The notes under the pieces: generated by a model
What the model saw: the letters and a program-made list of their open reading frames with translations, nothing else
The model's database searches: none
What the model was told of the DNA's origin: nothing
Shown here: positions 14,978-48,998 of the stretch, one piece after another
Numbering within the stretch: position 1 is the stretch's first letter
How the letters are laid out: every line of letters starts with the position of its first letter
Assembly: GCF_016863135.1 (NCBI RefSeq)
Contig: NZ_BOOH01000023.1
Location: 248,001 to 312,000, forward strand
Source of the DNA: Planobispora longispora
Lineage (GTDB): Bacteria > Actinomycetota > Actinomycetes > Streptosporangiales > Streptosporangiaceae
Reading direction: 5' to 3'
Length of the DNA stretch: 64,000 nt
Program-made: the position numbers and the translations under genes

Positions 14978-15136
14978 CCGGACCGGCGCGACCGCAGGCG
15001 CTCACGTTTTCCGTGTCGGACATAAGGGCATAAATCACCCGGTCCGAGCGGCTGCCGACAGCGGTCCCGCTGCGGCGAAGAAGGCGGCTCCCCTCCCACC
15101 CGGACTCGAGATCATGACGTGAAAGGGCGGGCAGCC

Positions 15137-15547: not shown

Positions 15548-15706
15548 ACCGGGAACACGTCCGGGGACACGACCGCCCCCACCTCCGGAACCGACCGCCC
15601 CGGCTCCCGTCTTCGACAGCGGCCCGCATCGCGGGATGAACCATCCCGCACAGAACCTTCACACGTCCTCCCCGATTCCGCCGTACGGCGGTGCTTGGCT
15701 TGCCCC

Positions 15707-16288: not shown

Positions 16289-16334
16289 CGGATGCCCCCT
16301 CGCCGACGACCCCGGCTGCAGAGGGTAACCACAG

Positions 16335-16886: not shown

Positions 16887-16967
16887 GCACTGCCGAATTG
16901 TTCTTATGAGATATCAAGGGCGGCGCTACGCGCCGCCACGCGACCCGGGCTTGCGGGCCACAGGAGA

Positions 16968-17321
16968 ATGGATGCCGAGCACAAAGTAGGCGAAACTCGC
17001 AACATGGCGAGACTAAGTCCTGGCTCTTCAGAGGAACTGACCGCCCCCGACGGCCGCACCTGGCAAGTGCGGAGACGCAAGCTTGACCCCAGGACTGTCC
17101 GGAGCCTGATGCGCCACCACGATGTTCCGGTCCTGCTGGGCGAATCCGGCGGCTTCGACTTGCGCTGGATCCCAGACGGGGAGCGGAGTGCTCTGTCAGA
17201 GCTGGTACTCCGGAACTACGCACTCCCGACCGAGCCTGCGGCCTCTGACACCGTGTACATGGGCCACGAGTTCGGCGATGAAGCCGGACAACGTCTGCTC
17301 TACATCGAGGAATGGTGCTAA
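16968..17321 (+). CDS. Hypothetical protein
   Basis: A 117-residue (or 105 if starting at ATG 17004) soluble protein of mixed charge with no recognised domain; tryptophans lie in GRTWQVRRR and LRWIPDGER. The AGGAGA before ATG 16968 is too close to be an ideal ribosome-binding site, so the start is unsure. It lies between the flavoprotein fragment and a tRNA-like scrap, and may be real but lineage-specific. Confidence 0.4.
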   Translation: MDAEHKVGETRNMARLSPGSSEELTAPDGRTWQVRRRKLDPRTVRSLMRHHDVPVLLGESGGFDLRWIPDGERSALSELVLRNYALPTEPAASDTVYMGHEFGDEAGQRLLYIEEWC

Positions 17322-17375
17322 GGCTCGCGGACATCCGTCGGCCGCTCCGCTCCCCGCAGACAAGCGAAAGCCGCC

Positions 17376-17417
17376 ACGGACTACCGGACTCGAACCGGCT
17401 CATCCCTGCAAAGGGTG
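17376..17417 (-). other. tRNA 3'-half-like sequence (degenerate)
   Basis: On the minus strand a 5-bp T stem, GCCGG/CCGGT, encloses a canonical TTCGAGT T-loop, followed by AGTCCGT. Just upstream CACCC/GGATG (one mismatch) encloses TTTGCAG, an anticodon-like loop with TGC. Only one base separates the two arms and no D-arm is found, so this is not a working tRNA. It resembles the remnant left by integration or excision at a tRNA gene. Confidence 0.35.
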
Positions 17418-17626
17418 TTAGCGCGAAGCCAGTAACGAACTTTCCCATTCGTCTTTGCCCGTGGCGGCACCCGAAGGATAAGCCACCGAAAACAGTGGCT
17501 GGAAAGCCTGCCTCCGGCGGGGGCAGATCAAGTACGCCGGAAGGGGCTGATAGGGCTGGTCATGGTGGTGGTGGCGGCCGGAGATGGCAGGATGACGTGC
17601 CGGACGCCGGTTCCCGGGAGGAAGAC

Positions 17627-18046
17627 ATGCGGCAGCGACTCAATCTGATTCTGCTTGGTGTGCGCGATGTCGCCGCCTCGGTCGCGTTCTACCGGGAACT
17701 GGGCTGGCGAAGGTCCACGGCAGGCTCGGACGAGTTCGCGTTGTTCGAGTTGGGTGGGGTCGCGGTCGCGTTTCAGTCCCGGGAAGCCTTCGCGGCCGAC
17801 GCCGGTCTACCCGACCGTCAGCCGGGCGGCTTCGCCGGATTCGCCCTGGCATATGTGGCCCGCAGCGCCGAGGAGGTGTACCAGGTCATGGCCAAGGCCG
17901 CCGAGTTGGGCGCCACCGTCACCCGCCCGGCCGGCCCGAATTCCTGGGGACACAGCGGATACTTCGCCGATCCCGACGGCCACCTGTTCGAGGTGCTCTA
18001 CGAAGACGGTTGGATCTTCGACGAACACGACGATCTGGTGCTCTGA
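17627..18046 (+). CDS. VOC-family (glyoxalase/bleomycin-resistance-like) protein
   Basis: A 139-residue protein with paired beta-alpha-beta-beta-beta modules. LNLILLGVRDVAASVAFYRE opens module 1, and YFADPDGHLFEVLYEDGW closes module 2 with the metal-position Glu. The fold serves glyoxalases, dioxygenases and antibiotic-binding proteins; the substrate is unknown. The start at ATG 17627 has a strong GGGAGGAAG site. It is a single gene with no evident partner. Confidence 0.85.
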   Translation: MRQRLNLILLGVRDVAASVAFYRELGWRRSTAGSDEFALFELGGVAVAFQSREAFAADAGLPDRQPGGFAGFALAYVARSAEEVYQVMAKAAELGATVTRPAGPNSWGHSGYFADPDGHLFEVLYEDGWIFDEHDDLVL

Positions 18047-18253
18047 CCGCCTGCCCTTGAGGGCGGATCGGGAACGCCGGAAAGAGGTGACGGAAGTCGG
18101 CGCACCGGGCAGAACCCGGGTTCCGCCCGGTCACCCTGTGGCGTTATCCCAAGTCAGCGCCACCATATCGAAACCCTTGCCGATTCGCTCTCGTGGATGA
18201 TCCGGCAGTAGGCTGCCGAAACCCGCTCTCGACGAGCAGCGCAACGGGCCGCG

Positions 18254-18727
18254 TCACTCTTGGCCCCTTTCCGGCGCACTTGGTCTGCCTCCCTTCGGAG
18301 CACGGTCGAGGCCGGAGGGCGCGACGGCGATGGCGTCGATCTCGACTCGGACAGCGGGATGGAACAGTGCGGTGACGCCGATCAGTGCACTGGCGGGCGG
18401 TGCTGCGGGGTCGATCCACCGATCGCGGACAGCCCGGATGGTCTCCAGGGAGCGGTCGGGGAGGTCGCGGACATACAGGGTGATCCGGGCCAGGTGGGCG
18501 GTGGTGGCACCGGCACGTCGCAGAGCGTCGGCCACATGGGCGAAAGCGGCGTCGAGTTCCGACGCGAAGTCGTCGGGCACCTCTCCGTGGACGTCCATGG
18601 CGGTCTGCCCGGAGACGAATAAGAGGTCGCCCCGGATGTGAACGGCGTCGGAGATGCCAGGGATGGTGGTGCTGGGCGTGCGGGTGAGGATTGTTCCACC
18701 AGCGGCGGGAGGCGGCGGGAGGTGCAT
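18254..18727 (-). CDS. RidA/YjgF/YER057c family protein
   Basis: A 157-residue Rid-family protein: ISDAVHIRGDLLFVSGQTAMD, VADALRRAGATTAHLARITLYV and VRVEIDAIAV match the family blocks. The position of the Arg that deaminates imines in true RidA (normally in a PARS-type motif) reads PASA here, so deaminase activity is doubtful and it fits the Rid subgroups without that Arg. The ATG at 18727 has a GGAGA upstream. Rid proteins are usually trimeric and cytosolic. No partner gene is adjacent. Confidence 0.85.
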   Translation of the reverse strand: MHLPPPPAAGGTILTRTPSTTIPGISDAVHIRGDLLFVSGQTAMDVHGEVPDDFASELDAAFAHVADALRRAGATTAHLARITLYVRDLPDRSLETIRAVRDRWIDPAAPPASALIGVTALFHPAVRVEIDAIAVAPSGLDRAPKGGRPSAPERGQE

Positions 18728-18944
18728 GGTGTCTCTCCGGTGAGATGGGTGATGGATGGGGCGGTGACGGCATGCGCCGTCCGGAGTGCTGATGCGTTTC
18801 TGCGATGGATGAGATGAGTGGGGGCGGCGGGGGTGGTTTCCGCGTCGCCGCCCCCCGATCTGGCCCGGGCTCTGGCCCGGGTCCCGCTCTGCATGGGGTC
18901 CTCGCCCGGACGCCCGGGACCCCTGGAGTGATTTCCGACAGGTG

Positions 18945-19712
18945 TCAGCGCCTCGCGAGCGCGTACGGAGCGTCCGGTTGCGGGCCGGTGCCCTCATGCG
19001 CGGCGATCCAGCGGTCGTGCAGCCACATCTCGGTGCCCCGGCGGCCCGCGCCGCCGTCCCAGCGCACATCCCGCTCGTAGGCGAGGACCGTTCCCCGGTC
19101 TCCGACGATGACCCAGGTGTACAGGCCGTTAGGATGCCGGGTCTTGACCTTCGTACCGGTCACAACCCGCTTGCGCCCCGCCTTGTCGCGGATCTCTTCA
19201 TCATGCTGGTCCACCCACTGCACATCGAGCCCGGCGGCATGCTCGGCCGCGAAACCACGGAGCCAGTCGAAGGCAGCCCGTTCCGCCCGGTCGGCCTGCG
19301 GTCGCGGTCGGCCCGCGGTCGCGGCCGTCAGCCGTGTGTAGCCCAGCAGGGTGCCTTTGTCGTCGACGACGACGGTGAGGTGTTCACCGCCGAGGGTGCG
19401 GGTGGTTCCCGGCTCGTAGCGCACAACGGTCACCGGACGCTCGTCGTGCCGCTCCCGGCGCGTGTGCACCGGTCGCCAGCCCTCGGGCACGGCCAGGCCC
19501 GCGTGCTTCAGTGCCCGCTCGGCTCGCTCCACGGAAATCTCCCGGGGTTTGATGTCAACGTCGATACCGGTGGTGCGGATGGTCGGTGCGACGGGTGGTC
19601 CGCCATCGGCAGCAGAGACGCCCGCAACAGTGAGCGCGGCCAGGAGCGCGCCCGTCCCGACGGTGAGCAGAGCCTTCGGCATGCCGCTCGCGGCGGACGT
19701 GAAGCGTTTCAT
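18945..19712 (-). CDS. Secreted hypothetical protein
   Basis: A 255-residue protein with an N-terminal signal peptide (basic MKRFTS, then MPKALLTVGTGALLAALTVAGVSA, cleavage after about residue 35). The mature part has repeated beta-rich blocks, LTVVVDDKGTLLGYTRL and YTWVIVGDRGTVLAYERDV, that resemble PepSY-like propeptide folds; this is only a resemblance. Its ATG overlaps the stop of the small membrane protein gene upstream (TGATG), so the two form an operon. That operon is divergent from a broken TetR gene with an intervening palindrome. Confidence 0.7.
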   Translation of the reverse strand: MKRFTSAASGMPKALLTVGTGALLAALTVAGVSAADGGPPVAPTIRTTGIDVDIKPREISVERAERALKHAGLAVPEGWRPVHTRRERHDERPVTVVRYEPGTTRTLGGEHLTVVVDDKGTLLGYTRLTAATAGRPRPQADRAERAAFDWLRGFAAEHAAGLDVQWVDQHDEEIRDKAGRKRVVTGTKVKTRHPNGLYTWVIVGDRGTVLAYERDVRWDGGAGRRGTEMWLHDRWIAAHEGTGPQPDAPYALARR

Positions 19713-20068
19713 CACCGTGCCTCCCGGGTGGCGCGGCTGCGGAGAGCGATGAACGCGGCACCACAGGTCGACAGCGCGACCCCGCCGGCGGCCACAGCCG
19801 CCGGCAGCACCACGGGTGCCCGCCCCACGGCCCGCCCCACGGCCGGCCGCGCGGCGTAGCCGGCGCTGAAGGCGGTGGCCGTCCACCCGGTCACCTCAGC
19901 TGTACTCAGCCGCCCCCCGCCGGTCCGGCCGAGCATGAGCAGGGTGGTCGACAGTCGGCCGATGACCGGTGAACTCGCCGTACCCAGCACTCTGACGGTC
20001 CCCGGGGAGGCGACCTCGGGGACGGCGGGCGGAGCCGATGCCGCGCCCGCGAGATTTGTCTCGATCAT
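19712..20068 (-). CDS. Small hypothetical membrane protein
   Basis: A 118-residue Ala/Gly/Val-rich protein with one clear hydrophobic segment, APVVLPAAVAAGGVALSTCGAAFIAL (about 80-105), and perhaps a weaker one near 40-50. No family is recognised. It is translationally coupled to the secreted protein downstream. A CCAACTAGTTGG palindrome 17 bp upstream of its start suggests repression by the neighbouring, now broken, TetR regulator. Confidence 0.6.
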   Translation of the reverse strand: MIETNLAGAASAPPAVPEVASPGTVRVLGTASSPVIGRLSTTLLMLGRTGGGRLSTAEVTGWTATAFSAGYAARPAVGRAVGRAPVVLPAAVAAGGVALSTCGAAFIALRSRATREAR

Positions 20069-20084
20069 GCCGTCATGAAACCAA

Positions 20085-20096
20085 CCAACTAGTTGG
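20085..20096. promoter_or_regulatory. Probable TetR operator
   Basis: CCAACTAGTTGG is a perfect 12-bp palindrome between the divergent small membrane gene and the TetR remnant, the usual place for a TetR autoregulatory operator. Confidence 0.5.
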
Positions 20097-20139
20097 ATGT
20101 CAATCCTTCACCCTTTCGGGCCCACAGGAGAGAACTGGC

Positions 20140-20450
20140 GTGTACTTCTCTGACACTTCGCCGAGGAGCAAAGGTCTGCACCGGTCTACGATGCGGCACT
20201 GACCAGGAAGAAACTGCTCGAGGCCGCCCGGCAGGAGTTCGCCGAGCCGGGGCTGGCCGGGGCGCGCGTCGATCGCATCGCCGCCCGGGCCGGCGTCGGC
20301 AAGGAGCGCCTGCACGGCCGCTTCAGCAGCAAGGAGGCACTCTTCGCCGCAGTGATCAGCATCGCGATGGATGAGCTCTCCGGGCCGGTGGCCCGGCCGC
20401 TGGATGACATCGCGACCCGGGTCGGCCCGGTGTACGACTTCCACCGTGAA
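20140..20450 (+). pseudogene. TetR-family regulator, frameshifted and truncated
   Basis: AGGAGA precedes GTG 20140, which opens MYFSDTSPRSKG, a typical TetR N terminus, but this frame stops at 20200. The HTH, TRKKLLEAARQEFAEPGLAG with VDRIAARAGVGKERLHGRF and SKEALFAAVI, continues in another frame from about 20187, so an indel near 20185 breaks the gene. The effector domain is lost after about 20450, where the sequence runs into an unrelated acetyltransferase fragment. A full-length TetR would need about 190 residues. Confidence 0.75.
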
Positions 20451-20507
20451 AGGAGTCCCACCCTCGGACGGCCACCCGGACACCCGGCGCGCGGATGCTT
20501 CGGCGCC

Positions 20508-20655
20508 CTACGGGCCGACGGGCTTTTCGAACCAGTGATGGACGTAGGGCTCGGCGTTGAACGCGTCCACCTCCCGGTATCCAGCACTGCGGTAGATCCC
20601 GATCGCCCCGGTCAGGACGCGGTTGGTCTCCAGGCGAAGCGTCCGCACGCCGCAC
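20508..20655 (-). pseudogene. GNAT acetyltransferase C-terminal fragment
   Basis: About 48 residues, TLRLETNRVLTGAIGIYRSA then GYREVDAFNAEPYVHHWFEK, match the end of a GNAT domain (motif B, Y/F-x3-GY/F) and stop at a normal position. The acetyl-CoA-binding R/Q-x2-G-x-G/A part is absent, so only the 3' end of the gene survives. It abuts the TetR remnant on one side and a transposase remnant on the other. Confidence 0.7.
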
Positions 20656-20667
20656 TCTGAAGCCGCC

Positions 20668-20944
20668 ATCGAATCTGCGCGCTTGGAGCGGGCCGGCATT
20701 CTCACCCTCGCCGACAGGGGCTACCAAGGTGCCGAAGGGTCGATCGTCACGCCGTGCAAAGGCCGGAGCAAGCCCGTCGCGCAGCAACAGGCAACCATTC
20801 CCACGCCCGGCTACGCGATCCCGGCGAGCGCGCCAACGCCCAGCTCAAGAGCTGGCGCACTCTCCGCTGGAGCCCCACAGTGAGGCCGGGCACCTGTGCA
20901 AGGCCATCGCCGTCCTGCAGGACTACGAGATCACCCGAGAATGA
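20668..20944 (+). mobile_element. IS5-family transposase C-terminal remnant
   Basis: The translation LERAGILTLADRGYQGAEGS, then (next frame) ARLRDPGERANAQLKSW, then (third frame) AGHLCKAIAVLQDYE matches the C-terminal DDE portion of a common actinobacterial IS5-type transposase. At least two frameshifts and a missing 5' part make it dead. No terminal inverted repeats were found. It shows that an insertion sequence once sat here and probably caused the neighbouring gene truncations. Confidence 0.75.
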
Positions 20945-20962
20945 GAAAGGTTCAGTGCTCAC

Positions 20963-21184
20963 TCACTTGGGCCGACGCTGTCTGGGCCGATACTGAGCGA
21001 CGCGTTCTGCCGCCATACGTTCCCGTCGTTCTTGATCCGCGATCTCACGAGGAGTCGGCAGTCGCCGCTTCTCATGTCTGATGGCCAATCGGATCGTCCA
21101 ATAGAGGAAGAAGAACAGCAGCGCGGCCAGAACAACCCATACGGCCCATACCATCAGCACGAGCAAAATATCGACGATCTGCAT
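20963..21184 (-). CDS. Small single-pass membrane protein
   Basis: Seventy-three residues. One long hydrophobic helix, DILLVLMVWAVWVVLAALLF with continuing FFLYW (about 4-28), is followed by a strongly basic, charged tail ending RPRQRRPK. Topology should be N-out/C-in by the positive-inside rule. The ATG at 21184 has GCGGAGG 5 nt upstream, a better start than the upstream in-frame codon. Function unknown. Confidence 0.6.
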   Translation of the reverse strand: MQIVDILLVLMVWAVWVVLAALLFFFLYWTIRLAIRHEKRRLPTPREIADQERRERMAAERVAQYRPRQRRPK

Positions 21185-39309: not shown

Positions 39310-39567
39310 ATGAGCGGCGACTTCTACGTCACGACCACCGACTACTACGACACCGACGGCGACGGCGGCACCGACGTCCAGCTCATCGACACCGACGGCG
39401 ACTACGTGGCCGACGAGGAGCGCTACGACACCGACGGCGACGGCGTGACCGACGTGGTCTACCTCGACCACAACGGCGACGGCTACACCGACGAGGTGCG
39501 CGTCGACCTCAACGGCGACGGCGTCTCCGACTACACCGAGTACCAGGGCCCGTTCCCGACCGCCTGA
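39310..39567 (+). CDS. Small cytosolic DxDGDG repeat (calcium-binding-like) protein
   Basis: Eighty-five residues made almost wholly of five acidic DTDGDG/DHNGDG/DLNGDG loops, for example YYDTDGDGGTDVQLIDTDGD. They resemble thrombospondin-type-3 or EF-hand-like Ca2+ loops. There is no signal peptide and no other domain, so this would be an intracellular calcium-binding protein. The start at ATG 39310 lies 12 nt after GAGGGGAACGGG; ATG 39289 and an upstream TTG are alternatives. It precedes the GrpE-domain protein by 90 bp on the same strand, perhaps cotranscribed. Confidence 0.7.
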   Translation: MSGDFYVTTTDYYDTDGDGGTDVQLIDTDGDYVADEERYDTDGDGVTDVVYLDHNGDGYTDEVRVDLNGDGVSDYTEYQGPFPTA

Positions 39568-39656: not shown

Positions 39657-40886
39657 ATGAGAGACCGACGCGCGCTCCTTTCCCTGCTGCTCCTGGGCTG
39701 CCTGGCACTGGCCGGGTGCGGCCAGGCGGCGGGGCTGGGCGGAGACGCCGCGGCTCCGGGCGGGGAGGCGGCCAGCACCGCTCCGCCGTCGGCGTCCGCC
39801 GGGAAGGGCCAGGGCGGCCAGGACGACGTGCAGCGCCTGCGGCCCAAGGAGCAGAACCGGCCCGGCGCGGCGAAGACGCCGGGCGGGGCCGGATCGGCCG
39901 GAGCCTCGGGGGGATCGGGCACGGACGACGAGGCCGGCGGGCAGGACGAGTCCGGCGCGGGGGGCGCGCCGGGTCCGTTCGGGCCCGTCACCCTGGCGCT
40001 CGCGCTGGCGGCGGGGGCTCTCGCCCTGATCGCCGCGGGAGTGCTGCTGTGGTTGCGCAACCGCAGGGCCGCGTCCGCTCCCGCCGAGCGGCGGGACGGA
40101 TCCGGCGTCGCGGGAGCGCCCGGCCCGGTGGCTCCGTTCCCCTCCGCGTCGCCGGCCGCGCCGGCAGGTCCGGTCACCGGGCCCGTGACGGGGCCGGTCA
40201 CGTACCGGGGACCGGAGGAGGCGACCGCGCAGGTGCGCGCCGTGCCGGCCGGACCGGCGGCGCCGCCCGCGCCCGCCGCACCGTCAGGACCGTCAGGACC
40301 CGTCGCGCCGCCGCCCGCGGAGGCCGCGCCGGCCGGGCCGTTCCCGGCGCCGGCCGCGCCGTCCGGATCACCCGCGACGCCTGCGGAGTCGCCCGCCGCC
40401 CCTTCGGAGCAGACCGGGACGCCCGTGTCGGGCCCGATGGAGGACGCCCTGGCCGAGGTGGCCGGGAGCGGGATCAGCCAGGCGCTCACCCAGCAGGTGG
40501 AGCGTCTTTTCGCCGGTGGGGGCCCCGGCCGGGAGGCTCTGATCGAGGCGTGCATCGGCTACCGGGACCAGATCGCCGAACGGCATCCCCGGCTGGCCGC
40601 CACGCTGCTGGAGGGACTGAACCGGGCGGGGGTGCGGGAGATCGTCGCCGACGGGCAGCGCTTCGACCCGCGCCTGCACGAGGCGTTCGGCACCGAGCCG
40701 ACCGACCGGCCGGAGCTGCACGACGTCGTCGCGGAGACCATCAAGCAGGGGTACGCCGACGGCGACCAGGTGATCCGCGTGCCGCAGGTCGCCGTCTACC
40801 GGTACGGGGCGGGAACCCCCGAGCGGCCGGAGAGCCACGGGCCGTCCGGAGGCGACGAGCCGTCCGGGACGGAGGACGCGCGATGA
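39657..40886 (+). CDS. Membrane-anchored GrpE-domain protein (lipobox plus TM)
   Basis: A 409-residue protein. A lipoprotein signal with lipobox L18-A19-G20-C21 starts it. A flexible exported stretch follows (22-108), then a TM helix (110-134, LALALAAGALALIAAG), an Ala/Pro linker (135-255, with GPVT repeats) and a C-terminal domain. Residues 320-384, GVREIVADGQRFDPRLHEAF... and TIKQGYADGDQVIRVPQVAV, match the beta-wing head of GrpE, the Hsp70 nucleotide-exchange factor. Topology places this head in the cytosol at the membrane. The long GrpE coiled coil is missing. It ends 32 bp from the convergent ECF sigma gene. Confidence 0.82.
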   Translation: MRDRRALLSLLLLGCLALAGCGQAAGLGGDAAAPGGEAASTAPPSASAGKGQGGQDDVQRLRPKEQNRPGAAKTPGGAGSAGASGGSGTDDEAGGQDESGAGGAPGPFGPVTLALALAAGALALIAAGVLLWLRNRRAASAPAERRDGSGVAGAPGPVAPFPSASPAAPAGPVTGPVTGPVTYRGPEEATAQVRAVPAGPAAPPAPAAPSGPSGPVAPPPAEAAPAGPFPAPAAPSGSPATPAESPAAPSEQTGTPVSGPMEDALAEVAGSGISQALTQQVERLFAGGGPGREALIEACIGYRDQIAERHPRLAATLLEGLNRAGVREIVADGQRFDPRLHEAFGTEPTDRPELHDVVAETIKQGYADGDQVIRVPQVAVYRYGAGTPERPESHGPSGGDEPSGTEDAR

Positions 40887-40918
40887 ACGTCTCCGCCCGG
40901 AGCGCGGCCCGCGGCTCC

Positions 40919-41476
40919 TCAGGCGAGGCCGGGCTCCGCGAGCTCGCTCTGGAGCTTCTTCCTCGCGCGGTGGATCCAGACCTTCACCGTGTTGAGCGGC
41001 ACCCCGATCGAGGCCGCCACCTGTTCGTAGGTCAGGCCGCCCGCCCACAGCAGGAGCGCCTCCCGGTGGGAGCCGGGCAGGGTGGACATGGCCCGGCGCA
41101 GGTCGGTCAGCTCGGCGACGGTGTCCTCGAAGGGGTCGGTGACCACCGAGTCCTCCGCCAGCTCGTCGAAGATCCCGCCCGCCGGGGAGCGGCGCCGTAT
41201 CACCGCCAGGGCGGCGTTGCGCGCGATGGCCAGGACCCACGCCCGGAAGGGGGCCTTGCCCTCGAAGGTGGCCAGCCCCTTCCAGGCCGCGAGCTGGGTG
41301 TCCTGCAGCGCGTCGAGCGCGTCCGCCCGGTTCTCGGTCAGGTGGTAGCAGACGCCGAAGGCCGGGCGCTGCGCCGTGGCCCACAGCGTGGCGAAGGCGT
41401 TCTCGTCACCCGCCCTCGCTGCGACGACGAGCAGGCTCTCGTCGTCAACGGCACCGCTCAGGGACCCACTCGTCAT
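40919..41476 (-). CDS. ECF-type RNA polymerase sigma factor
   Basis: A 185-residue sigma-70 family factor. Region 2 spans about 20-90 with ALDALQDTQLAAWKGLATFE and FRAWVLAIARNAAL. Region 4 spans about 125-178 with LTYEQVAASIGVPLNTVKVW and IHRARKKLQ. No anti-sigma factor is adjacent. It is divergent from the acidic-protein/dynamin operon (79-bp gap) and convergent with the GrpE-domain gene, so it is the obvious candidate regulator of this block. Its target promoter could not be identified. Confidence 0.92.
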   Translation of the reverse strand: MTSGSLSGAVDDESLLVVAARAGDENAFATLWATAQRPAFGVCYHLTENRADALDALQDTQLAAWKGLATFEGKAPFRAWVLAIARNAALAVIRRRSPAGGIFDELAEDSVVTDPFEDTVAELTDLRRAMSTLPGSHREALLLWAGGLTYEQVAASIGVPLNTVKVWIHRARKKLQSELAEPGLA

Positions 41477-41554
41477 CGGTCGCCATCCTCCCGAGGTGGA
41501 AAATCAGCCAATGACATCACGCCGCACGTTTCGCCCGGTATGAGGTAGTCACCC

Positions 41555-41941
41555 ATGATATTGGACCGTAACAATACAGAGTTCGACCCGGCCGGGGGAG
41601 AGGCAGACGACCTGGCTGAGCTGCACCGACTTCTTTTCGACACGGTGCCCGCACCGACCGAGGAGGAGAGCGCGGAGATGCTGGCGGAGACGTTCTCCGC
41701 GGACGACGCCGACCTCTCCCTGCTGCCCGACTCCGGTGTCTTCTCCGACGCCGGCGCGGACGCCGCAGCCGCCGACGAGCCCGGCCCGTTCGACGCGGAC
41801 GGCCCCTTCGGCGCCGAGGACCACTGGGACGCCCTGGGCTCCGGCTCCGGCGACGCGGACGGCGCCGACCACGGTGAGGACTTCCACGCGCAGGACGACT
41901 CCTACGACGCCTGGGACCCGCTCTTCGGCGGTGACGTGTGA
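41555..41941 (+). CDS. Small highly acidic protein leading the dynamin operon
   Basis: A 128-residue protein, very rich in Asp/Glu with almost no Lys, and no signal peptide. An N-terminal helix-like segment (EADDLAELHRLLFD) is followed by disordered acidic repeats. It is not recognised. It occupies the place of the small first gene (iniB) in mycobacterial iniBAC dynamin operons, but I see no reliable sequence match. ATG at 41555 has GAGG 9 nt upstream; its stop overlaps the GTG of the first dynamin (GTGA), indicating coupled translation and a likely shared function. Confidence 0.7.
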   Translation: MILDRNNTEFDPAGGEADDLAELHRLLFDTVPAPTEEESAEMLAETFSADDADLSLLPDSGVFSDAGADAAAADEPGPFDADGPFGAEDHWDALGSGSGDADGADHGEDFHAQDDSYDAWDPLFGGDV

Positions 41942-43785
41942 CGGCCGTGGCGGCCGGGCCCGCGGAGCTGCTGCGCCGGCTGTGCGACGCCACCTCCGCC
42001 CGGCTCGCCGGGGCGGAGCTGCGCGAGCGGGTGGCGCGGATCCGCGCCGACCTCGACGCGCCGCTGCGGGTGGCGGTGGCCGGCGCGGTCAGCAGCGGGA
42101 AGTCCACCCTGGTGAACGCGCTGCTCGGGCTCCCGGTCGCCCCGGTGGACGCGGGCGAGTGCACCTTCGTGGTCACCCAGTACGAGTACGGCGCGGACGA
42201 CGGCCGCATCACGATCGAGCTGACCGACGGCGGCGTGGCCCACTCCCGGCTGCTGCCCGGCCACCGGCTCCCGGACGACCTCGGCGTGGAGGTCTCCCGG
42301 ATCCGGCGGCTGCGCGTCGCGCTGAACCTGCCGGCGCTCCGCACGGTCACCATCGTCGACACCCCCGGCATGAACACGGTGACGGCCGTCAACGAGCGGG
42401 CCGCCCGGAGCATGCTGTTCGGCTCGGGCGAGGAGGACGACCGCGCGCAGGCGATGATCTACGTTCTGCGCTACGTCCAGAAGTTCGACGACACCACCCT
42501 CGCCGAGTTCCGCGGCCTCACCGACGCGTGCGGCATGAGCTGCGTCAACACCCTGGCCGTGCTCGGCCAGATCGACCGGCGCGGCGACGAGGACGACCCC
42601 TGGCCGACGGCCCGGCGGCTGGCCGCCGGGGGCTACCAGGACCTGCGCACCTCGGTCTTCGACGTGGTCCCGGTGATCGGCCTGCTGGCCGAGACCGCGC
42701 GCGCCCACCCGCTGGCCGACGACGAGGTCGCCGCCCTGGTCCGCCTGGCCGCGATGGACGAGGACGACCTGGAGGACTACCTCCTGGACCTGGACGACTT
42801 CCGCACCGCGTCCGACCTTCCCGTCCCGGCGGAGGCACGGCGCCGCCTGGTCGAGCGGCTGCACCGCTACGGCATCCGCGCCGCGGTGGAGGCGCTGCGC
42901 CGGGGCGAGGCGTCCGACGCCGCCTCCCTCGCCGACCACCTGCTCCGCTGCTCGGGGTACGCCTCGGCGGGCCGGGCCGCGACCGGCTCGGTGGCCGCGG
43001 GCCTGGCGCACTTCGCCCGCCGCGCCGACCAGCTGAAGGCGCTGGACGCCGTGACCCGGCTCCGCAAGCTCGCCCGCTCCCCCGCCCTGGGATCGGACCG
43101 CGCCACCCTGGACGCGCTGGCGGCCCAGCTCGACGAGAACAGGCCGATCGCGACCGCCCTGGGCGGTCTGCGGATCTTCGCCGCGGCCGAGGCCCTCGGC
43201 CGCGGCACGCTGGTGCTGAACGAGGAGATGACCGCCGAGCTGCTGCGCCTGTCCCGCCACGACGACCCCGCCGAGCAGCTCGGCCTGGTCGCGGGGGCCA
43301 CCCGGGAGGAGATCGCCGCCTCGGCCACCGCCGCCTCCACGCGCTGGCGCACGCTCGCCATGATGAACGAGGGCCGCACCGCCGGCCACCGGGCCAGGGA
43401 CGTGCTGACCGTCCTGGAGGACATGGCCATCGCGGCCCTGGAGGCGCCCGCCGACCCGGCCGCCGGGAGCGGCGCGCCCCTTCCTCCGGTCCGGGTCGAC
43501 CCCGCCGCGATCGAGACGCTGCGCACCGCCCCGATGGTCCCCGCCGGGGACAAGCGGGCGCTGGAGCTGCTGCTCGCCGGGACCGAGCTGGCGGCCCAGC
43601 TCGGCGCCCCGCCCGGGGCCCCGCGCGCCGAGATCGCCGGCTACGCCGCCGCCCTGAGCGCCCGGTTCCGCGTCCTGACCCACCGGCCGCTCTCGCTGCG
43701 GCAGCGGCGGGCGGCGGAGACCCTCTGCGACGCCTACGAGGCCATCTGGTCGCAGCACCACCAGGACGGTTCCCACCCCCGGTGA
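41938..43785 (+). CDS. Bacterial dynamin-like GTPase, first of a pair
   Basis: A 615-residue protein with an N-terminal GTPase: P-loop GAVSSGKST (49-57), switch I Thr in ECTFVVT, and G3 DTPG (141-144). The rest is helical, as in DynA/IniA-type proteins. No clear membrane helix is seen, so membrane contact may come from the partner protein. In Streptomyces, DynA and DynB are adjacent genes whose products stabilise FtsZ rings in sporulating hyphae; in mycobacteria IniA and IniC remodel the membrane. The GTG at 41938 overlaps the acidic gene. The second dynamin starts 41 bp downstream. Confidence 0.9.
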   Translation: MTAVAAGPAELLRRLCDATSARLAGAELRERVARIRADLDAPLRVAVAGAVSSGKSTLVNALLGLPVAPVDAGECTFVVTQYEYGADDGRITIELTDGGVAHSRLLPGHRLPDDLGVEVSRIRRLRVALNLPALRTVTIVDTPGMNTVTAVNERAARSMLFGSGEEDDRAQAMIYVLRYVQKFDDTTLAEFRGLTDACGMSCVNTLAVLGQIDRRGDEDDPWPTARRLAAGGYQDLRTSVFDVVPVIGLLAETARAHPLADDEVAALVRLAAMDEDDLEDYLLDLDDFRTASDLPVPAEARRRLVERLHRYGIRAAVEALRRGEASDAASLADHLLRCSGYASAGRAATGSVAAGLAHFARRADQLKALDAVTRLRKLARSPALGSDRATLDALAAQLDENRPIATALGGLRIFAAAEALGRGTLVLNEEMTAELLRLSRHDDPAEQLGLVAGATREEIAASATAASTRWRTLAMMNEGRTAGHRARDVLTVLEDMAIAALEAPADPAAGSGAPLPPVRVDPAAIETLRTAPMVPAGDKRALELLLAGTELAAQLGAPPGAPRAEIAGYAAALSARFRVLTHRPLSLRQRRAAETLCDAYEAIWSQHHQDGSHPR

Positions 43786-43825
43786 CCGGTCGCCCGGCAC
43801 CAGATCCCCGACAGGAGAGACGACG

Positions 43826-45727
43826 ATGACCACCCCTGACCCCAACGGCCCGGTGGCCCGGCTGCTGCGCTACGCCAACGAGGTCCACTCGCTGGCCGGC
43901 CGGTGCGGCAGGGCGGACCTGGCGGAGGTGCTGGCCGCCGCGGCGGCCCGCTGGAAGGACGAGTGCACCGACATCGTGGTGGCCGGGGCGCAGAAGCGCG
44001 GCAAGAGCCGGCTGATCAACACCCTGGTGGGCCACCCCGACCTGGTCCCCGTCGACGCCGACGTGGCCACCAACTGCTTCCTGTCCCTGCGCCGCGGTCC
44101 CAAGCTCGCCGCCGTCGTCCACCGGAGCACCGAGGACGGCCCGGTGCGGACGCCGATCACCGTCGAGTCGATCCCCGACTACGCCTCGATGCGCGGCGAC
44201 GCCGGCAAGCGCCGCGACGTCGTCAGCGTGGACATCACCCTCGACAACCCCCTCCTCGACGGCCTGCGCCTGCTCGACACCCCCGGGGTGGACAGTCTGA
44301 CCGTGGGGCACCGGCAGGTGACCGTGGCCATGCTCCAGCGGGCCGACGCCCTGCTGTTCACGCTCAGCGCGCAGGACCAGCCGGTGCTCCGGCACGAGCT
44401 GGAGTTCCTGGCCGAGGCCGCCGAGCGGGTCCAGGCGATCGCGTTCGTGCTGACCAAGGTCGAGGACTCCGCCAACTGGCGGACCCTGATGGAGGAGAAC
44501 CAGGCCCGCCTGAAGACCTTCGTCGCCGACGCCGTCGCGGAGAACCCGGCCCGGTCGACCACGCTGACCCCGCTGCTGTCGGCGCCGTGGATCCCGGTGA
44601 GCTCCAAGCTCGCCGAGGCCGCCGAGGCCAAGCGGCGGGAGGGGCGCCAGGAGCGCGCGGACGCGCTGCGCTCCCGCAGCGGAATGGACGCGCTGGAACG
44701 GCACCTGCGGGGGTTCGCCGACGGCCGGGAGTTCGCGCGCGGCGCCACCGTGGTCAACGCCGCGCTGTCGGTCCTGGGCTCGCTGGGCACCGGGGCCAAG
44801 GACGACGTCGCCGCGGGCTCCGACGACGAGAACGACGTGGCGGCCCGGCTGGCCCAGGTGGAGACGGGGCTGGAGGAGCTGACCGAGCTGGCCGCCCGCC
44901 GCCGGGCGGGCGCGGTGGCCAACACCTTCCTCGGGCGCGAGGTGGCGGGCATCGTCGCGGCGCGGGCGGCGGAGATCCGCCAGCCGTACGAGAACGCGAT
45001 CGCCACGCTGAAGAAGCAGGACCAGATCGACCGGTACATGGCGGAGCTGCCGATGAGCGTGCAGCGCTCGCTGGAGGCCGCCTGGTCGCAGATCGTCTAC
45101 GACGTGGAGGTGCTGGCGCGCACCACCCTGGACGCCTTCGCCCGCGATCTCGGCCTGGACCCGGTGGACCTGGCCGCCGACCGGCGGATGATGCCCAGCT
45201 TCTCGCAGGTCCAGGTCAAGGGCGACGTGGGGCCCGAGGCCCCGGAGCAGGTGGACATGGTCCGGGACGTGCTGCCCTCGGCCTCGATCGGCCTGTCCCT
45301 GGGCGGCTTCGCCGCGACGCTGCTCGGCCCGGTGGGCTTCATCCTGGTCGCCCCGGCGATCGGCGCGGCCATCTTCATGGGACGCCGCTCGATGGAGAAG
45401 GTGCAGCGCAACCAGGCGGCGCTGCGCACCGCGCTCCGCGACCAGTTCTCGCTGGTCTCCCGGGAGATGACGCTCGACCTGGAGCGGATGGTCGCCACCT
45501 GGCGGGTGAACGTGGAGCAGGCCGCGGACGAGAGCCTGATGCGGCGCCGCAAGGAGCTGGAGACCCGGCGCGCCGAGCTGAAGGCCGCCTCCGCGCGCTC
45601 GGCCGAGGAGCGCAGGAAGGCCCGGCAGTCCGGCCAGGACCGGATGACCTCGATCGACACCCTCACCGCCCGCGGCCTGGAGCTCCGCAAGGAGCTGGCC
45701 GCCGCGGTGGCCGCCCTGGGCCGCTGA
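43826..45727 (+). CDS. Bacterial dynamin-like GTPase, second of a pair, with membrane segment
   Basis: A 633-residue dynamin-family GTPase. The P-loop is GAQKRGKSR (54-62), with Arg after GKS in place of the common Ser/Thr. G3 is DTPG (151-154) and G4 is TKVED (210-214). Residues 484-519 (SIGLSLGGFAATLLGPVGFI and on) are a hydrophobic paddle or hairpin likely to insert in the membrane. The C-terminal region is a charged coiled coil. The GAGAGACG site precedes ATG 43826. Together with its partner it should bind and remodel the cytoplasmic membrane. Confidence 0.9.
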   Translation: MTTPDPNGPVARLLRYANEVHSLAGRCGRADLAEVLAAAAARWKDECTDIVVAGAQKRGKSRLINTLVGHPDLVPVDADVATNCFLSLRRGPKLAAVVHRSTEDGPVRTPITVESIPDYASMRGDAGKRRDVVSVDITLDNPLLDGLRLLDTPGVDSLTVGHRQVTVAMLQRADALLFTLSAQDQPVLRHELEFLAEAAERVQAIAFVLTKVEDSANWRTLMEENQARLKTFVADAVAENPARSTTLTPLLSAPWIPVSSKLAEAAEAKRREGRQERADALRSRSGMDALERHLRGFADGREFARGATVVNAALSVLGSLGTGAKDDVAAGSDDENDVAARLAQVETGLEELTELAARRRAGAVANTFLGREVAGIVAARAAEIRQPYENAIATLKKQDQIDRYMAELPMSVQRSLEAAWSQIVYDVEVLARTTLDAFARDLGLDPVDLAADRRMMPSFSQVQVKGDVGPEAPEQVDMVRDVLPSASIGLSLGGFAATLLGPVGFILVAPAIGAAIFMGRRSMEKVQRNQAALRTALRDQFSLVSREMTLDLERMVATWRVNVEQAADESLMRRRKELETRRAELKAASARSAEERRKARQSGQDRMTSIDTLTARGLELRKELAAAVAALGR

Positions 45728-45763
45728 GGCACGGCTCGCAGAACGGCCCGCGGCACGGCGGGC

Positions 45764-45830
45764 GGGGCTTTCGGCAGCAGGCCCGTGGACGGGCGGTCAC
45801 GTCCCCGGGCCTGCTGCCGGAGCCCCTTTT
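45764..45830. terminator. Strong long-stem terminator after the dynamin operon
   Basis: CGGCAGCAGGCCCG (45772-45785) pairs perfectly with CGGGCCTGCTGCCG (45806-45819). It is extended by GGGGCT/AGCCCC and followed by TTTT (45827-45830). It lies between the convergent dynamin and secreted-protein genes and ends plus-strand transcription. Confidence 0.85.
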
Positions 45831-46351
45831 CAGTTCATGCAGTCCTGCCCCTTGAGGACCAGGGCCATCTGGGAGACCTTCCGGCCCGACAGGAGGAAGT
45901 AGTAGTGGGCGTTCGGGTTCCTCGGGACGGCGGCGATCGGGAACCCGCTCCCCGCCGTCTCCAGATCGGGGTAGGCCCTGCGCAGCTGACGCCGGGTGGA
46001 GCCGATCCCGATCCCCCGTGAGGTCTTGACGCCCTCGCCGACGATGATGACGGCCACGCCGTGCCGCCTGGAGATGAGCACGTCCGGTCCGCCGCGGTGC
46101 CGCGGGCCCGTCCTGAACTCCCATTCCGAGCAGTTCGCCCAGTTGCCCGTGCGCACGAGCTTCCCGGTCGCGCGGGCCTGCTCGACGCTCATCCCCAGCT
46201 TCACGCCGCGGTGTCCGAACGCCCCCAGTTTCCTCTTCCCGTCCGCGGGCGCGGCCTCCGCCGCCGGTACGCCGCCGGTCAGGAGCATCCCCCCGGCCAG
46301 CGCCGCCACCAGCGCCGGACGGCTCAGCCGCCGGGCAGTCGCATGCTTCAT
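45830..46351 (-). CDS. Secreted hypothetical protein
   Basis: A 173-residue exported protein. The signal peptide runs to about residue 34 (ALVAALAGGMLLTGGVPAAEA). The mature domain has two cysteines (WANCSEWEF and the C-terminal QDCMN), which could pair, and GVKLGMSVEQARATGKL, a helix typical of small extracellular actinobacterial proteins. No family named. It lies downstream of the Hsp70-like gene on the same strand (160-bp gap). Whether it belongs to that block is unknown. Confidence 0.75.
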   Translation of the reverse strand: MKHATARRLSRPALVAALAGGMLLTGGVPAAEAAPADGKRKLGAFGHRGVKLGMSVEQARATGKLVRTGNWANCSEWEFRTGPRHRGGPDVLISRRHGVAVIIVGEGVKTSRGIGIGSTRRQLRRAYPDLETAGSGFPIAAVPRNPNAHYYFLLSGRKVSQMALVLKGQDCMN

Positions 46352-46511
46352 CGTGATCCCCCGTGATTACGATCGGACGCTCCAGTCCCGTCCGCCGGAG
46401 CGGCACCTGAGCGGACTTTCACGTGTTCCTGTTTGCGCAGGTTAAGCAGGGGATGCCGGTGAAGGCGGGTTCTGGCCCGGCGTGTCGCCGCTGACCGCCC
46501 GGCGCGGTCCG

Positions 46512-48998
46512 TCAGAGCGGCAGGTGCACCAGGGTGGCGGGCTGGTCGCGGACGTTGCCGGCCGCGTCGTCGGGGTGGTGCAGGCACAGCAGGCCCGTGG
46601 GGATCCGGGCGACCGGCTCGAACGTCCCCGAGGTGCGGTGCACCTCCCGCGCGCCCCCGGGGGTGACGTGCAGCAGACGGCTCCGCCCCGCGTCCCGCAT
46701 GGTCATCCACATGGAGTCGCCGTCGGCGACCATCCGCGGGCGCTCCCAGCGGTGGCGGGAGGTGAGGTGGCCCGACAGGGTCGCCGACTGCTTGCCCATC
46801 AGGAAGTCCACCGCGTGGGTCCGCTCGTTGAAGACCCCGACCGACCAGCCCCGGGCAGGGCTCACCTGGTCGGCGCTGATCGCGTAGATGTGGTTGCCCG
46901 CCGGGAACCAGCGCAGCGCGCCGGCCCGCGGGCGCGGCATGACCAGCGTGGTCCGGCCGTCGGCGGTGTCGGCCTCCAGCCCCGCCGAGCTGGCCGTGAA
47001 CCACCGCCCCTTGTGCAGGACCACCTGGTGCAGCCAGCTGCGCCCGGGCTCGCGCACGGTCGGGCGCACGACGCCGCCGGGATCGATCAGGCAGAGCACC
47101 TGCCACGGCCGGAAGCCCTCGTGGCGGTTGCCGAACAGCGGCTTGTTGCTGCCGAACTGGCCGAGCACCACGGTGCAGCCGGGCGCGCCCACCGAGGGCG
47201 CGGGCTCGGTGCCGCTGGGTCCATCCTGGTCGACCAGGCGCCGCATCCGGTTGTCCTCGTTGACGAACCACTGGGCGTAGGGGCCGAGGTCGCGCGGGAC
47301 GGGCTCGGGGAAGAACCCGCCGCCCAGGTTGAGCTCCATCATCGCCAGATGGCCGGTCTCCCCCCAGGGCAGGCCCATCGTGCCGTCCACCGCGATGACC
47401 TGCCGGGGCTGGTAGAAGACCCACGCGACGGGACCGTGGGCCAGGACCGTGGGGTTGCCCCACATCTGCAGCGGGTGCGTGGTCCGCACGGTCAGCTCCG
47501 GGGTGAGCGTGCGGACCAGCACCTGCGCCGGTCCCACCTGCTCCACCGCGGCGACGCCCTCGCCCGTGGCGGCCCACTCCACCAGCCTGCCGAAGGGGAT
47601 CTCCCGGTCGTGGCGCCCGCCCAGGCCGTCCAGCCTGCGCAGGAAGTGGCCGCTGGGGAACGCCTGGTGGACGAAGATCCGGCCGCCCTCGGCGCGGGCC
47701 TCCAGGACCCCGTCCATGATCTTCTCGATCCCCGGGACCGCGGGGCCGTCCGCTCCGGCGACCCTGGCCGGGCCCACGGCGTGGCCGGTCGACGGGAGGG
47801 GGTGGCCCCCGGTCTGCCTGCCCGCGGGGAGCTGGTGGCCCCCGGTGTGCCCGGCGGCCGGGAGGGGGTGGCCTCCGGTGTGCCCGGGCAAGGAGTGGCC
47901 CCCGGTGGAGCGGCTGGGGTCGACCTTGAGCTTCCAGGCGAGCTGGGCGGCGCCGTACGCGACGACGATCTTCGGGTCGTCGTAGGTCCGCACCAGATCG
48001 CCGTGGCGCTCGCGCACCACCTGCTGGACCAGCGGCATCCGGCTGGCGCCCCCGGTCATGAACACCGCGCCGAGCTCGTCGGCGCCGATCCCGGCGCCGC
48101 GGATGGTCTCGTCCAGGATGTCGACCGTCTTGACGATCTCATCCCCGATGAGCCTCTCCAGGTCCACCCTGGTGATGTGCACGTCCTCGTTGATGCCGAC
48201 CACGTAGTGGGAGGAGGTGTCGAACTTCGACAGGGCCTCCTTGGCCTCCCGGGCCATCTTGAACAGGTCGGCGGCGTAGCTCGCGTAGCGGCGCTCGGGG
48301 TTGGTCGTCACCTGCGTCCACCACTCGGCGTCGAAGCGCTCGATCTGCTCCCCGAGGAAGGCGAACACCCGCTCGTCGAAGCCCTCGCCGCCGATCTCGT
48401 CGCTGCCGCCCGGCTCGCCGACGACCTTGAAGTCGCTGCCGTCCACGGTGAGCACGGCGGCGTCGAAGGTGCCGCCGCCGAGGTCGTAGACGGCCAGGTG
48501 CGAGCCGGCGGCCACCCGCCCGGCGGAGGCGAAGTAGCGGGCCGAGGCCACGGGCTCGTCGATGAGGACGATCCGCACGCCGCGCACGACCTTCCTGGCG
48601 GCGGCCACCAGCACCGCCTTGCGCTCCTCGCTCCAGGCGACCGGGTGGGTCAGCGCGATGCAGTCGGGCGTCGCCCCGTCGAAGCGCCGCCGCCCCTCGC
48701 TCACGAACAGCTCCAGCAGCGCCGCCATGGCGTCCACGACGTCCACCGGGACCCCGCCGAGCAGCATCTTGCCGCGGCCGACATACCGTTTGGGGTTGCG
48801 CTCGACGCGCTCGGGATTGATCGCGATCCCCCGCTGAGCGATCCGCCCCGCCACGAGGTTTCCGCGCTCGTCGAGCATGACCGCGGAGGGGATGCGCCTC
48901 TCCCCCTCCACCTCCAGGATGTCGAAGCGCCCCTCGGCGGCTATCACCCCGGCGGAGAAACTCGTCCCGAGGTCGACACCGAGGCACCACTGCGCCAT
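46512..48998 (-). CDS. Hsp70-family ATPase with beta-propeller-like C terminus
   Basis: An 828-residue protein. The N-terminal actin-fold ATPase (about 1-357) has phosphate-1 LGVDLGTSFSAGV, connect-1 LIDEPVASARYF, phosphate-2 YDLGGGTFDAAVL and adenosine MTGGASRMPLV motifs, so ATP binding is intact. The Hsp70 substrate-binding domain and lid are absent. After a GGHPLP/TGGH repeat linker (363-407), residues 408-828 form a Trp/Gly-rich all-beta region with repeated W-containing strands (WGNPTV, WFPAGNHIY, WFTASSAG), suggesting a beta-propeller. Near a GrpE-domain protein and two dynamins, it could be their chaperone ATPase. Confidence 0.87.
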   Translation of the reverse strand: MAQWCLGVDLGTSFSAGVIAAEGRFDILEVEGERRIPSAVMLDERGNLVAGRIAQRGIAINPERVERNPKRYVGRGKMLLGGVPVDVVDAMAALLELFVSEGRRRFDGATPDCIALTHPVAWSEERKAVLVAAARKVVRGVRIVLIDEPVASARYFASAGRVAAGSHLAVYDLGGGTFDAAVLTVDGSDFKVVGEPGGSDEIGGEGFDERVFAFLGEQIERFDAEWWTQVTTNPERRYASYAADLFKMAREAKEALSKFDTSSHYVVGINEDVHITRVDLERLIGDEIVKTVDILDETIRGAGIGADELGAVFMTGGASRMPLVQQVVRERHGDLVRTYDDPKIVVAYGAAQLAWKLKVDPSRSTGGHSLPGHTGGHPLPAAGHTGGHQLPAGRQTGGHPLPSTGHAVGPARVAGADGPAVPGIEKIMDGVLEARAEGGRIFVHQAFPSGHFLRRLDGLGGRHDREIPFGRLVEWAATGEGVAAVEQVGPAQVLVRTLTPELTVRTTHPLQMWGNPTVLAHGPVAWVFYQPRQVIAVDGTMGLPWGETGHLAMMELNLGGGFFPEPVPRDLGPYAQWFVNEDNRMRRLVDQDGPSGTEPAPSVGAPGCTVVLGQFGSNKPLFGNRHEGFRPWQVLCLIDPGGVVRPTVREPGRSWLHQVVLHKGRWFTASSAGLEADTADGRTTLVMPRPRAGALRWFPAGNHIYAISADQVSPARGWSVGVFNERTHAVDFLMGKQSATLSGHLTSRHRWERPRMVADGDSMWMTMRDAGRSRLLHVTPGGAREVHRTSGTFEPVARIPTGLLCLHHPDDAAGNVRDQPATLVHLPL

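Follow-up and report, generated by a model that had tools for sequence, protein, structure and literature searches.

We examined a window of 64,000 nucleotides from the actinobacterium Planobispora longispora (contig NZ_BOOH01000023.1, positions 248,001 to 312,000; the genome assembly comprises 8.84 Mb in 120 contigs) that contains a locus encoding two adjacent dynamin-like GTPases, an Hsp70-type ATPase and several companion proteins (Table 1). The initial annotation of this DNA had listed, at positions 39657-48998, a GrpE-head protein, an extracytoplasmic function (ECF) sigma factor, a small acidic protein, two dynamins and an Hsp70, and had proposed that an Hsp70-GrpE cycle assembles or disassembles dynamin oligomers at the membrane. 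All these genes were recovered by Pfam scanning and examination of the open reading frames (ORFs): both GTPases match Dynamin_N above the cut-off, the GrpE-head protein passes the Pfam cut-off and combines a lipobox with a transmembrane (TM) segment, and the Hsp70 carries a propeller-like tail instead of a substrate-binding domain (SBD), as had been annotated. The acidic gene and the gene for dynamin A overlap by 4 bases. Two further genes, the DxDGDG-repeat gene and the 173-aa ORF, were absent from the initial annotation.

Table 1. Features of the Planobispora longispora Hsp70-dynamin locus (positions within the 64,000-nucleotide window)
Feature	Position	Strand	Basis
DxDGDG-repeat (calcium-binding-type) protein, 85 aa, upstream of GrpE	39310..39567	+	tblastn repeat-type match
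Lipoprotein/TM-anchored head-only GrpE, predicted Hsp70 nucleotide exchange factor	39657..40886	+	Pfam GrpE, PDB GrpE chains
ECF sigma factor, divergent from dynamin operon	40919..41476	-	Sigma70_r2 E 2e-13, r4_2 E 9.8e-13
Divergent intergenic region with conserved block GGAAAATC..CAATGACATCACG; candidate ECF promoter	41477..41554	.	Alignment of 24 sequences
Acidic low-complexity protein, 128 aa, first gene of dynamin operon	41555..41941	+	No Pfam family
Dynamin A, IniC-type	41938..43785	+	Dynamin_N E 4e-12; GTG start assumed
Dynamin A C-terminal repeat R1, J-domain-like (suggestive)	43252..43440	+	hhalign
Dynamin A C-terminal repeat R2	43564..43761	+	Homologous to R1
Dynamin B, IniA-type	43826..45727	+	Dynamin_N E 3.5e-16; tree
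Secreted-looking 173-aa ORF, between dynamin B and Hsp70	45830..46351		Sequence
Hsp70 (nucleotide-binding domain and tail)	46512..48998	-	HSP70 E 4.3e-32
Hsp70 nucleotide-binding domain, canonical phosphate and adenosine motifs	47925..48998	-	Pfam, motif table
Predicted beta-propeller tail in place of Hsp70 SBD	46512..47738	-	AlphaFold2 model, Foldseek

The Pfam HSP70 match of the window protein ends at profile position 372 of 599, that is, it covers the nucleotide-binding domain only; neither the peptide-binding domain nor the lid was matched by Pfam. The motifs with established roles in the Hsp70 ATPase are all intact (DLGTSFS, DEPVAS, DLGGGTFD and GGASRMP). The 408-aa tail was modeled with AlphaFold2, from an input of the window sequence and those of 21 of 25 related loci, as an all-beta structure (mean predicted local distance difference test score 80.7, predicted template modeling score 0.83). 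A Foldseek search of the PDB with this model yielded 491 matches at E <= 0.001, led by propellers including BamB (9co0_B, E = 2.1e-7) and YncE; the template modeling (TM) scores are modest, 0.2-0.5 in the top matches, with a maximum by query length of 0.50 among the best 50. The tail of the P. rosea Hsp70 is 95% identical to that in the window.

The other dynamin-linked Hsp70s examined share this truncated architecture. All 10 proteins scanned, from 9 loci, match Pfam HSP70, with the best stretch never extending past position 402 of 599, and no SBD match was detected in any of the 12 module Hsp70s examined (these 10 and those of the window and Anabaena). The tails differ among lineages: a PQQ/BamB-type propeller is found at locus L044 (E = 3.9e-40), WD40 repeats at L074 (E = 4.8e-40) and, more weakly, at L046, and a BON domain at L072. 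Judged by eye, the Hsp70-like proteins of L070, L072, L079 and L082-L084 have a single TM segment and an extracytoplasmic tail; those of the Mycobacterium-like loci L082-L084, which lie next to iniAC-type genes, end in a TM segment and a Thr/Pro-rich tail. L084 encodes a second Hsp70-like copy, cut by the end of the region. In a phylogenetic tree of the Hsp70s, canonical DnaKs grouped apart, with weak support for the basal split (75/40).

Three surveys bear on the link between Hsp70 and the dynamins. In an order-level survey, dynamin B matched 18 of the 121 sampled genomes, the window genome included; the other 17 yielded 18 regions, each with an Hsp70-like gene. In a phylum-level survey, Dynamin_N matched 68 of 246 genomes, and 71 loci were taken irrespective of the presence of Hsp70; eight matches in frames of about 300 aa, taken for Era GTPases, were left out. 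An Hsp70-like gene was present in 11 of the 12 loci with dynamins of the IniA/IniC clades versus 1 of the 59 others (Fisher p = 5.5e-11, with the single exception counted as a match); this exception, at L117, is MreB by sequence and was set aside, and of the 59 unlinked loci, 13 cover less than 12 kb, short enough for a distant Hsp70 to have been missed. A search that started from the Hsp70 tail retrieved 25 loci, 24 from Streptosporangiaceae and one from a Micromonosporaceae metagenome-assembled genome. All 25 encode a dynamin, and 24 encode two, the remaining one (L144) being a 6.7-kb contig; a GrpE hidden Markov model matched in 24 of the 25, the sigma factor in 23, the acidic gene in 16 (tblastn) and the DxDGDG repeat in all 25.

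Pooling the window with 9 order-survey regions, 11 phylum-survey loci, 12 regions from plasmid-collection records and L144 gave 34 IniC-type loci; the near-copies L031-L039, all nine with an Hsp70-like gene, were excluded. With Hsp70 and GrpE profiles built iteratively on the same loci, an Hsp70-like gene lies at a distance of 0-6.8 kb in 34 of 34 IniC-type loci versus 1 of 63 other dynamin loci (the MreB). Without the window and L144, which was found starting from Hsp70 and never placed in the dynamin tree, the count is 32 of 32. These numbers, together with the 11 of 12 versus 1 of 59, rule out chance neighbors; the Hsp70-dynamin connection, which the initial annotation drew from gene proximity and domain logic in a single locus, is strongly backed by a conserved neighborhood. 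Among the companion genes grouped there with the dynamins, Hsp70 proved constant, GrpE optional (see below) and the sigma factor frequent in the Streptosporangiaceae-centered loci. A dynamin pair mostly devoid of a neighboring Hsp70 is what we found for Streptomyces-type DynA/DynB and not for the IniA/IniC-type pair.

The window dynamins belong to the same clades as IniA and IniC of the mycobacterial iniBAC operon. In the main tree of 139 dynamins from the phylum-survey loci and the order-survey regions, dynamin A falls inside a 32-row clade with a Shimodaira-Hasegawa-like approximate likelihood ratio test (SH-aLRT) support of 100, and dynamin B inside another 32-row clade with a support of 99; the Mycobacterium-like loci L082-L084 are represented in both, and long branches in the tree were flagged. 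All 63 rows from Hsp70-bearing loci are in these two clades, along with one unlinked row (L106), and the remaining 75 rows, outside the two clades, all come from loci without Hsp70. The closest solved relative of dynamin B is M. smegmatis IniA (6j72, E = 4.7e-20), which the IniA of L084 matches over 580 residues. Judging from the tree, the window pair is IniA/IniC-like and not of the Streptomyces DynA/DynB type. The initial annotation had invoked both parallels; the mycobacterial one holds, and the Streptomyces one falls because those dynamins, although also encoded by paired genes, belong to other clades, in loci lacking Hsp70 and without a GrpE match (0 of 63). This assignment treats the f5/g36 rows of the tree as Streptomyces, which we presume them to be. 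Streptomyces DynA/DynB were thus rejected as the closest relatives given the separate clades in the 139-row tree, with less clarity for dynamin B in a reduced tree, where the IniC-type clade was retained with a support of 100.

Several unusual dynamin arrangements were encountered. L106 (8762-10444) is an IniA-type singleton without an IniC-type partner, Hsp70 or GrpE, in a genome that has the full module at L079. L052 (6170-11862), in a genome of the f5/g36 group, contains three adjacent long-branch dynamins without Hsp70, and L043 (2513-19295), in a genome of the window's family, contains three dynamin pairs around one Hsp70 and one GrpE. At L048 (8400-9705), a dynamin adjoining an Hsp70 is split among three reading frames and seems to be defective; an intact pair lies close to it. 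In Nocardia farcinica (L145, 13616-17328) and a relative (L079, 582-4375), the dynamin pair adjoins a canonical dnaK-grpE-dnaJ cluster in addition to its own Hsp70-like gene.

The window GrpE protein matches the Pfam family with E = 7.7e-12, over positions 99-163 of 165, that is, the head only, and matches three GrpE chains in the PDB (E = 6.1e-5 to 2.7e-4). The long N-terminal dimerizing helices of GrpE were not matched by the profile, which a diverged helix could escape. Signals for membrane anchoring are present in the sequence, namely, a lipobox (LALAGC) at the N-terminus and, further on, one TM segment followed by RNRR; given this arrangement, the GrpE head should face the cytoplasm. Among 24 orthologous frames, TM-like hydrophobic segments are present in 19 and a lipobox in 17; as found, 5 (L124, L138-L141) have neither. 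In a Pfam re-check of 9 GrpEs, all matched at E <= 3.2e-4 and 5 passed the cut-off; one of the 9, the canonical GrpE of L145, matches profile positions 25-164, whereas the module GrpEs tested match the head only. The GrpE of L044, with no Pfam match at E <= 0.01, was called solely by similarity to the window protein. At E <= 1e-4, a GrpE is encoded near 12 of the 34 IniC-type loci versus 0 of the 63 other dynamin loci; weak matches at L048 (E = 3e-3) and L081 (E = 4e-4) and one cut by the region edge (L042) were not counted. GrpE is therefore a recurrent but optional component of the module. At L147 and L191, the gene between the two dynamins that is annotated as hypothetical encodes a GrpE head.

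The C-terminus of dynamin A contains two homologous helical repeats, R1 and R2 (hhalign E = 7.4e-8); in most other IniC-type proteins, a single alignable counterpart is present. Against J-domains, R1 alone scored E = 0.0049 with a probability of 3%, and R2 scored E = 0.078; the wider IniC-type module aligned with J-domains in register (E = 5.8e-4, probability 29%, score 20.6, compared to 14.2 for the best of 96 decoy windows). Scored with the profile of this module, 29 of the 30 J-domains exceeded the 95th percentile for shuffled sequences, though the best shuffle (9.5 bits) stood above the J-domain median (6.4). A structural model of the C-terminus (mean local score 79.8, predicted template modeling score 0.47) retrieved J structures in Foldseek with high probability and poor E-values (2ys8, probability 0.94, E = 0.39; 6jmg, probability 0.82, E = 0.89), and a designed protein with a probability of 0.99. 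Thus, the IniC-type C-terminus seems to faintly resemble a J-domain without the HPD motif; for remote homology the prospects are at best balanced, and a working J-domain in dynamin A is doubtful. A comparable arrangement has been described in Nostoc, where the partner of BDLP1 has a DnaJ-like domain (PMC6104087; this and the other articles are cited from excerpts of their text). This partner, B2IZD2, is likewise a member of a dynamin pair and is described as carrying the DnaJ-like domain at its C-terminus, in the same place as the J-like repeats of the window protein.

Copies of the module extend well beyond the family of Planobispora. Dynamin searches identified records in a plasmid collection, 16 of which were opened; all 11 actinobacterial records contain the dynamin pair and an Hsp70-like gene, although two of them, labeled as plasmids, probably represent chromosomes (Nocardia, 2.7 Mb; Nonomuraea, 11.9 Mb). 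In nine of the 11, the annotation uses the terms 'dynamin family protein', 'GTPase' and 'Hsp70 family protein'. Among the 34 IniC-type loci are the iniAC loci of Mycobacterium-like type, others on plasmid records from Rhodococcus, Gordonia and Nocardia, and one on a single Anabaena plasmid. This plasmid, pANA01 of Anabaena sp. 90, encodes a dynamin pair, the second member of which belongs to the IniC-type clade, and a 410-aa Hsp70 without an SBD about 6.8 kb away. No Hsp70 was found in the examined regions around dynamins of Lysinibacillus, Lichenicola, Kovacikia and Paenibacillus; the cyanobacterial sample consists of two plasmids, that of Anabaena with Hsp70 and that of Kovacikia without (18.6 kb examined). 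The linkage is conserved across Actinomycetota and on one cyanobacterial plasmid, with differences in gene order and strand: dynA-hsp70-grpE-dynB on one strand at L044, dynA-grpE-dynB-hsp70 at L146, and dynamin-grpE-GTPase-hsp70-hsp70 at L147 and L191, where the genes overlap by 4 bases at three of the four junctions; some copies are tight operons, and in the plasmid copies the Hsp70 gene usually follows the dynamins in their operon. A large gene encoding a CHAT domain (L186, 7265-12001) is located upstream of Hsp70 in the Anabaena locus. C39-type peptidase genes occur near the modules of plasmid records from Rhodococcus and Anabaena (L147, L149, L154, L189-L191), and at L147 and L149 the dynamins are preceded by DUF7373 genes in divergent orientation.

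In the window, the sigma factor gene and the acidic-dynamin operon diverge, and a GGAAAATC..ATGACATCACG-like block between them is conserved in an alignment of 24 sequences, which we take as a candidate autoregulated ECF promoter. The counts for the sigma factor and the acidic gene cover the 25 Streptosporangiaceae-centered loci; outside the window's family, the sigma factor was matched at L147 by tblastn, and annotated sigma factor genes are present at L147, L151, L189 and L191. The DxDGDG-repeat protein is a possible extra component of the module: the repeat was also matched in the plasmid copies L147 and L148 (tblastn, low-complexity filter off), and under a strict count it occurs in 6 of 34 IniC-type loci versus 0 of 64 others. 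Other neighbors were rejected as parts of the module, namely, the 173-aa ORF, matched in 1 of 25 related loci, and S66 and GH15 genes, found in 13 and 12 of the 25, all in the nearer group L120-L132.

The relationship of this locus to systems studied previously can be outlined as follows. In vitro, M. smegmatis IniA can deform and cut membranes, with low fission activity on its own, and purified IniC was too unstable to study (PMC6715688); by analogy, the window dynamins may remodel membranes in a GTP-dependent manner. Kaur et al. (2020; PMC7159879) described paired DO-GTPases and GAP1-N2 proteins associated with Hsp70, GrpE, SBD-less Hsp70 and DnaJ fusions. Those systems and the window locus are alike in having two paralogous GTPases, Hsp70 (including an SBD-less form), GrpE and membrane association; the window GTPases, unlike DO-GTPases, are dynamins. 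No Pfam match to GAP1 or DO-GTPase was found among the 9 window proteins scanned, and membership in the GAP1-N2 conflict systems was rejected on this basis; a match of the window GrpE protein to EACC1 was not significant (E = 0.82). The same genome encodes a GAP1-N2 locus on another contig (C69, about 10,800-21,000; L192, 1794-12027), with two DO-GTPase2 genes, GAP1-N2, Hsp70 and GrpE; therefore, two unrelated GTPase pairs are encoded in one genome, each with Hsp70 and GrpE, and we read the window locus as the dynamin counterpart of this design. A literature search that covered few subscription papers and no preprints returned no paper joining a dynamin pair, Hsp70 and GrpE; the prior mentions found are single sentences in the excerpts of PMC5760070 and PMC6104087, and the excerpts of PMC9950537, PMC8195603 and PMC11019930 contain nothing on an Hsp70-dynamin link.

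We propose that the locus represents, in Planobispora, a conserved Hsp70-dynamin module in which an IniA/IniC-type pair is run with a dedicated SBD-less Hsp70-type ATPase, an interpretation that we consider evenly poised between right and wrong. Under this proposal, Hsp70 would drive assembly or release of the dynamins as an ATP-driven conformational switch and not as a general foldase. The propeller, or the TM segment and extracytoplasmic tail in other lineages, would bind an envelope or dynamin partner and may sense the state of the partner or of the envelope; the membrane-tethered, head-only GrpE would reset Hsp70 by nucleotide exchange at the membrane, and the C-terminal repeats of the IniC-type dynamin might serve as a docking site for the ATPase domain or regulate it. 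The module would produce timed assembly or release of a dynamin heteropolymer on the stressed plasma membrane, being expressed, in Planobispora, under the divergent ECF sigma factor.

The analogy drawn is with Hsc70, which works through its SBD. In the Hsc70-auxilin-exchange factor system, auxilin contributes a J-domain, whereas the window Hsp70 lacks the SBD and the dynamin J-domain is at most a candidate. Given the missing SBD, a textbook cycle of peptide binding is excluded, and an unmodified version of the clathrin-type reaction, in which Hsc70 and an exchange factor act on a membrane-shaping polymer (PMC4436892), is unlikely. A more ambitious version of the proposal envisages a complete dedicated Hsp70 machine for bacterial dynamins, composed of a J-like IniC-type tail, a propeller- or TM-tailed SBD-less Hsp70 and a membrane-tethered head-only GrpE, that cycles the IniA/IniC heteropolymer on the plasma membrane; this would be an independent counterpart of Hsc70/auxilin, ranging from cyanobacterial plasmids to mycobacteria, where it would have decayed to a pseudo-ATPase. 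We regard this extended scheme as rather unlikely.

Several observations weigh against an Hsp70 that acts on dynamins. The evidence of linkage is one of neighborhood and not of contact, and the correlation between dynamin and Hsp70 distances (Mantel r = 0.73 and 0.75, p = 5e-4, 21 loci), although in favor of the module, is confounded by shared descent. In the window, Hsp70 is encoded on the strand opposite to the dynamins, and at L079 and L145 the nearest Hsp70 is the canonical DnaK, with the module's own copy about 3 kb away. The phosphate motifs are degraded in the Mycobacterium-like (L082-L084) and Nocardia-type (L079, L145) Hsp70-like proteins, and therefore an ATP cycle cannot be general; the L082-L084 loci combine these degraded motifs with TM tails and have no GrpE match, in contrast to the intact motifs and propeller of the window protein. 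GrpE was not found in 22 of the 34 IniC-type loci, including the three Mycobacterium-like ones, and in two of the 12 loci counted as positive, L079 and L145, the sole GrpE is the canonical one adjoining DnaK. In the reduced tree, Streptomyces-type rows fall among IniA-type rows, at forks with support of 86-90, so that the IniA-type clade appears less firm than the IniC-type clade. The case for a J-domain in dynamin A is weak: the HPD motif is absent from both repeats in a 25-row alignment, and Pfam DnaJ gave no match; further, a search with a J-domain profile matched no dynamin, and the Foldseek search with the C-terminus model produced no match at E <= 0.001 and listed 14-3-3 proteins first.

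The strongest competing explanation is that the locus is an envelope conflict or defense module, a dynamin version of the GTPase-centered conflict systems that would sense an invader at the membrane, for example, during phage entry, with Hsp70 as a threshold or assembly component. The DO-GTPase pairs with Hsp70 and GrpE reported by Kaur et al. (PMC7159879), one of which resides on C69, are consistent with this possibility, as are plasmid carriage, the patchy distribution of dynamin B in the order and the CHAT-domain gene near the Anabaena locus. The PADLOC models LeoA and LeoBC also match dynamin B (E = 3e-17 and 5.2e-17), but such models may simply recognize dynamins; no GAP1, DO-GTPase or recognized effector was found among the 9 window proteins scanned, and the mycobacterial relatives, the iniBAC genes, are induced by cell-wall drugs and strongly by first-line tuberculosis drugs (PMC5760070). 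We judge a role in defense to be somewhat improbable. Alternatively, the Hsp70-type protein might merely aid the folding or solubility of large, unstable dynamins, as the instability of purified IniC (PMC6715688) and the strict genetic linkage expected of a client-chaperone pair could suggest; however, the absence of the SBD from the examined Hsp70s, the tails that are propellers, TM segments or short, and the loss of intact ATPase motifs in some copies make a dedicated folding partner quite unlikely. Finally, that the Hsp70-like protein is an envelope-stress sensor regulating dynamin expression, for example, via the ECF sigma factor, without acting on the dynamin proteins, is very unlikely: although the divergent sigma factor with its conserved intergenic block, the TM/extracytoplasmic tails in several lineages and the regulation of mycobacterial iniBAC by the neighboring IniR (PMC5760070) would fit, outside the window's family a sigma factor match was limited to some loci, whereas the Hsp70-like gene is in every one of the 34, and the plasmid-borne Hsp70 usually belongs to the dynamin operon as a downstream gene.

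The locus can be described as the known IniA/IniC dynamin system with an Hsp70 arm, parallel in design to the DO-GTPase systems. The bacterial dynamins that we examined split into Hsp70-linked and Hsp70-free classes. For the activation and the partners of the IniA/IniC dynamins, a near-obligate Hsp70-family protein provides a concrete and testable missing component. These findings suggest that the coupling of paired GTPases to Hsp70 and GrpE is a recurrent bacterial design that makes use of unrelated GTPases and, in the case of the dynamins, that bacteria control membrane remodeling with a chaperone-type motor.

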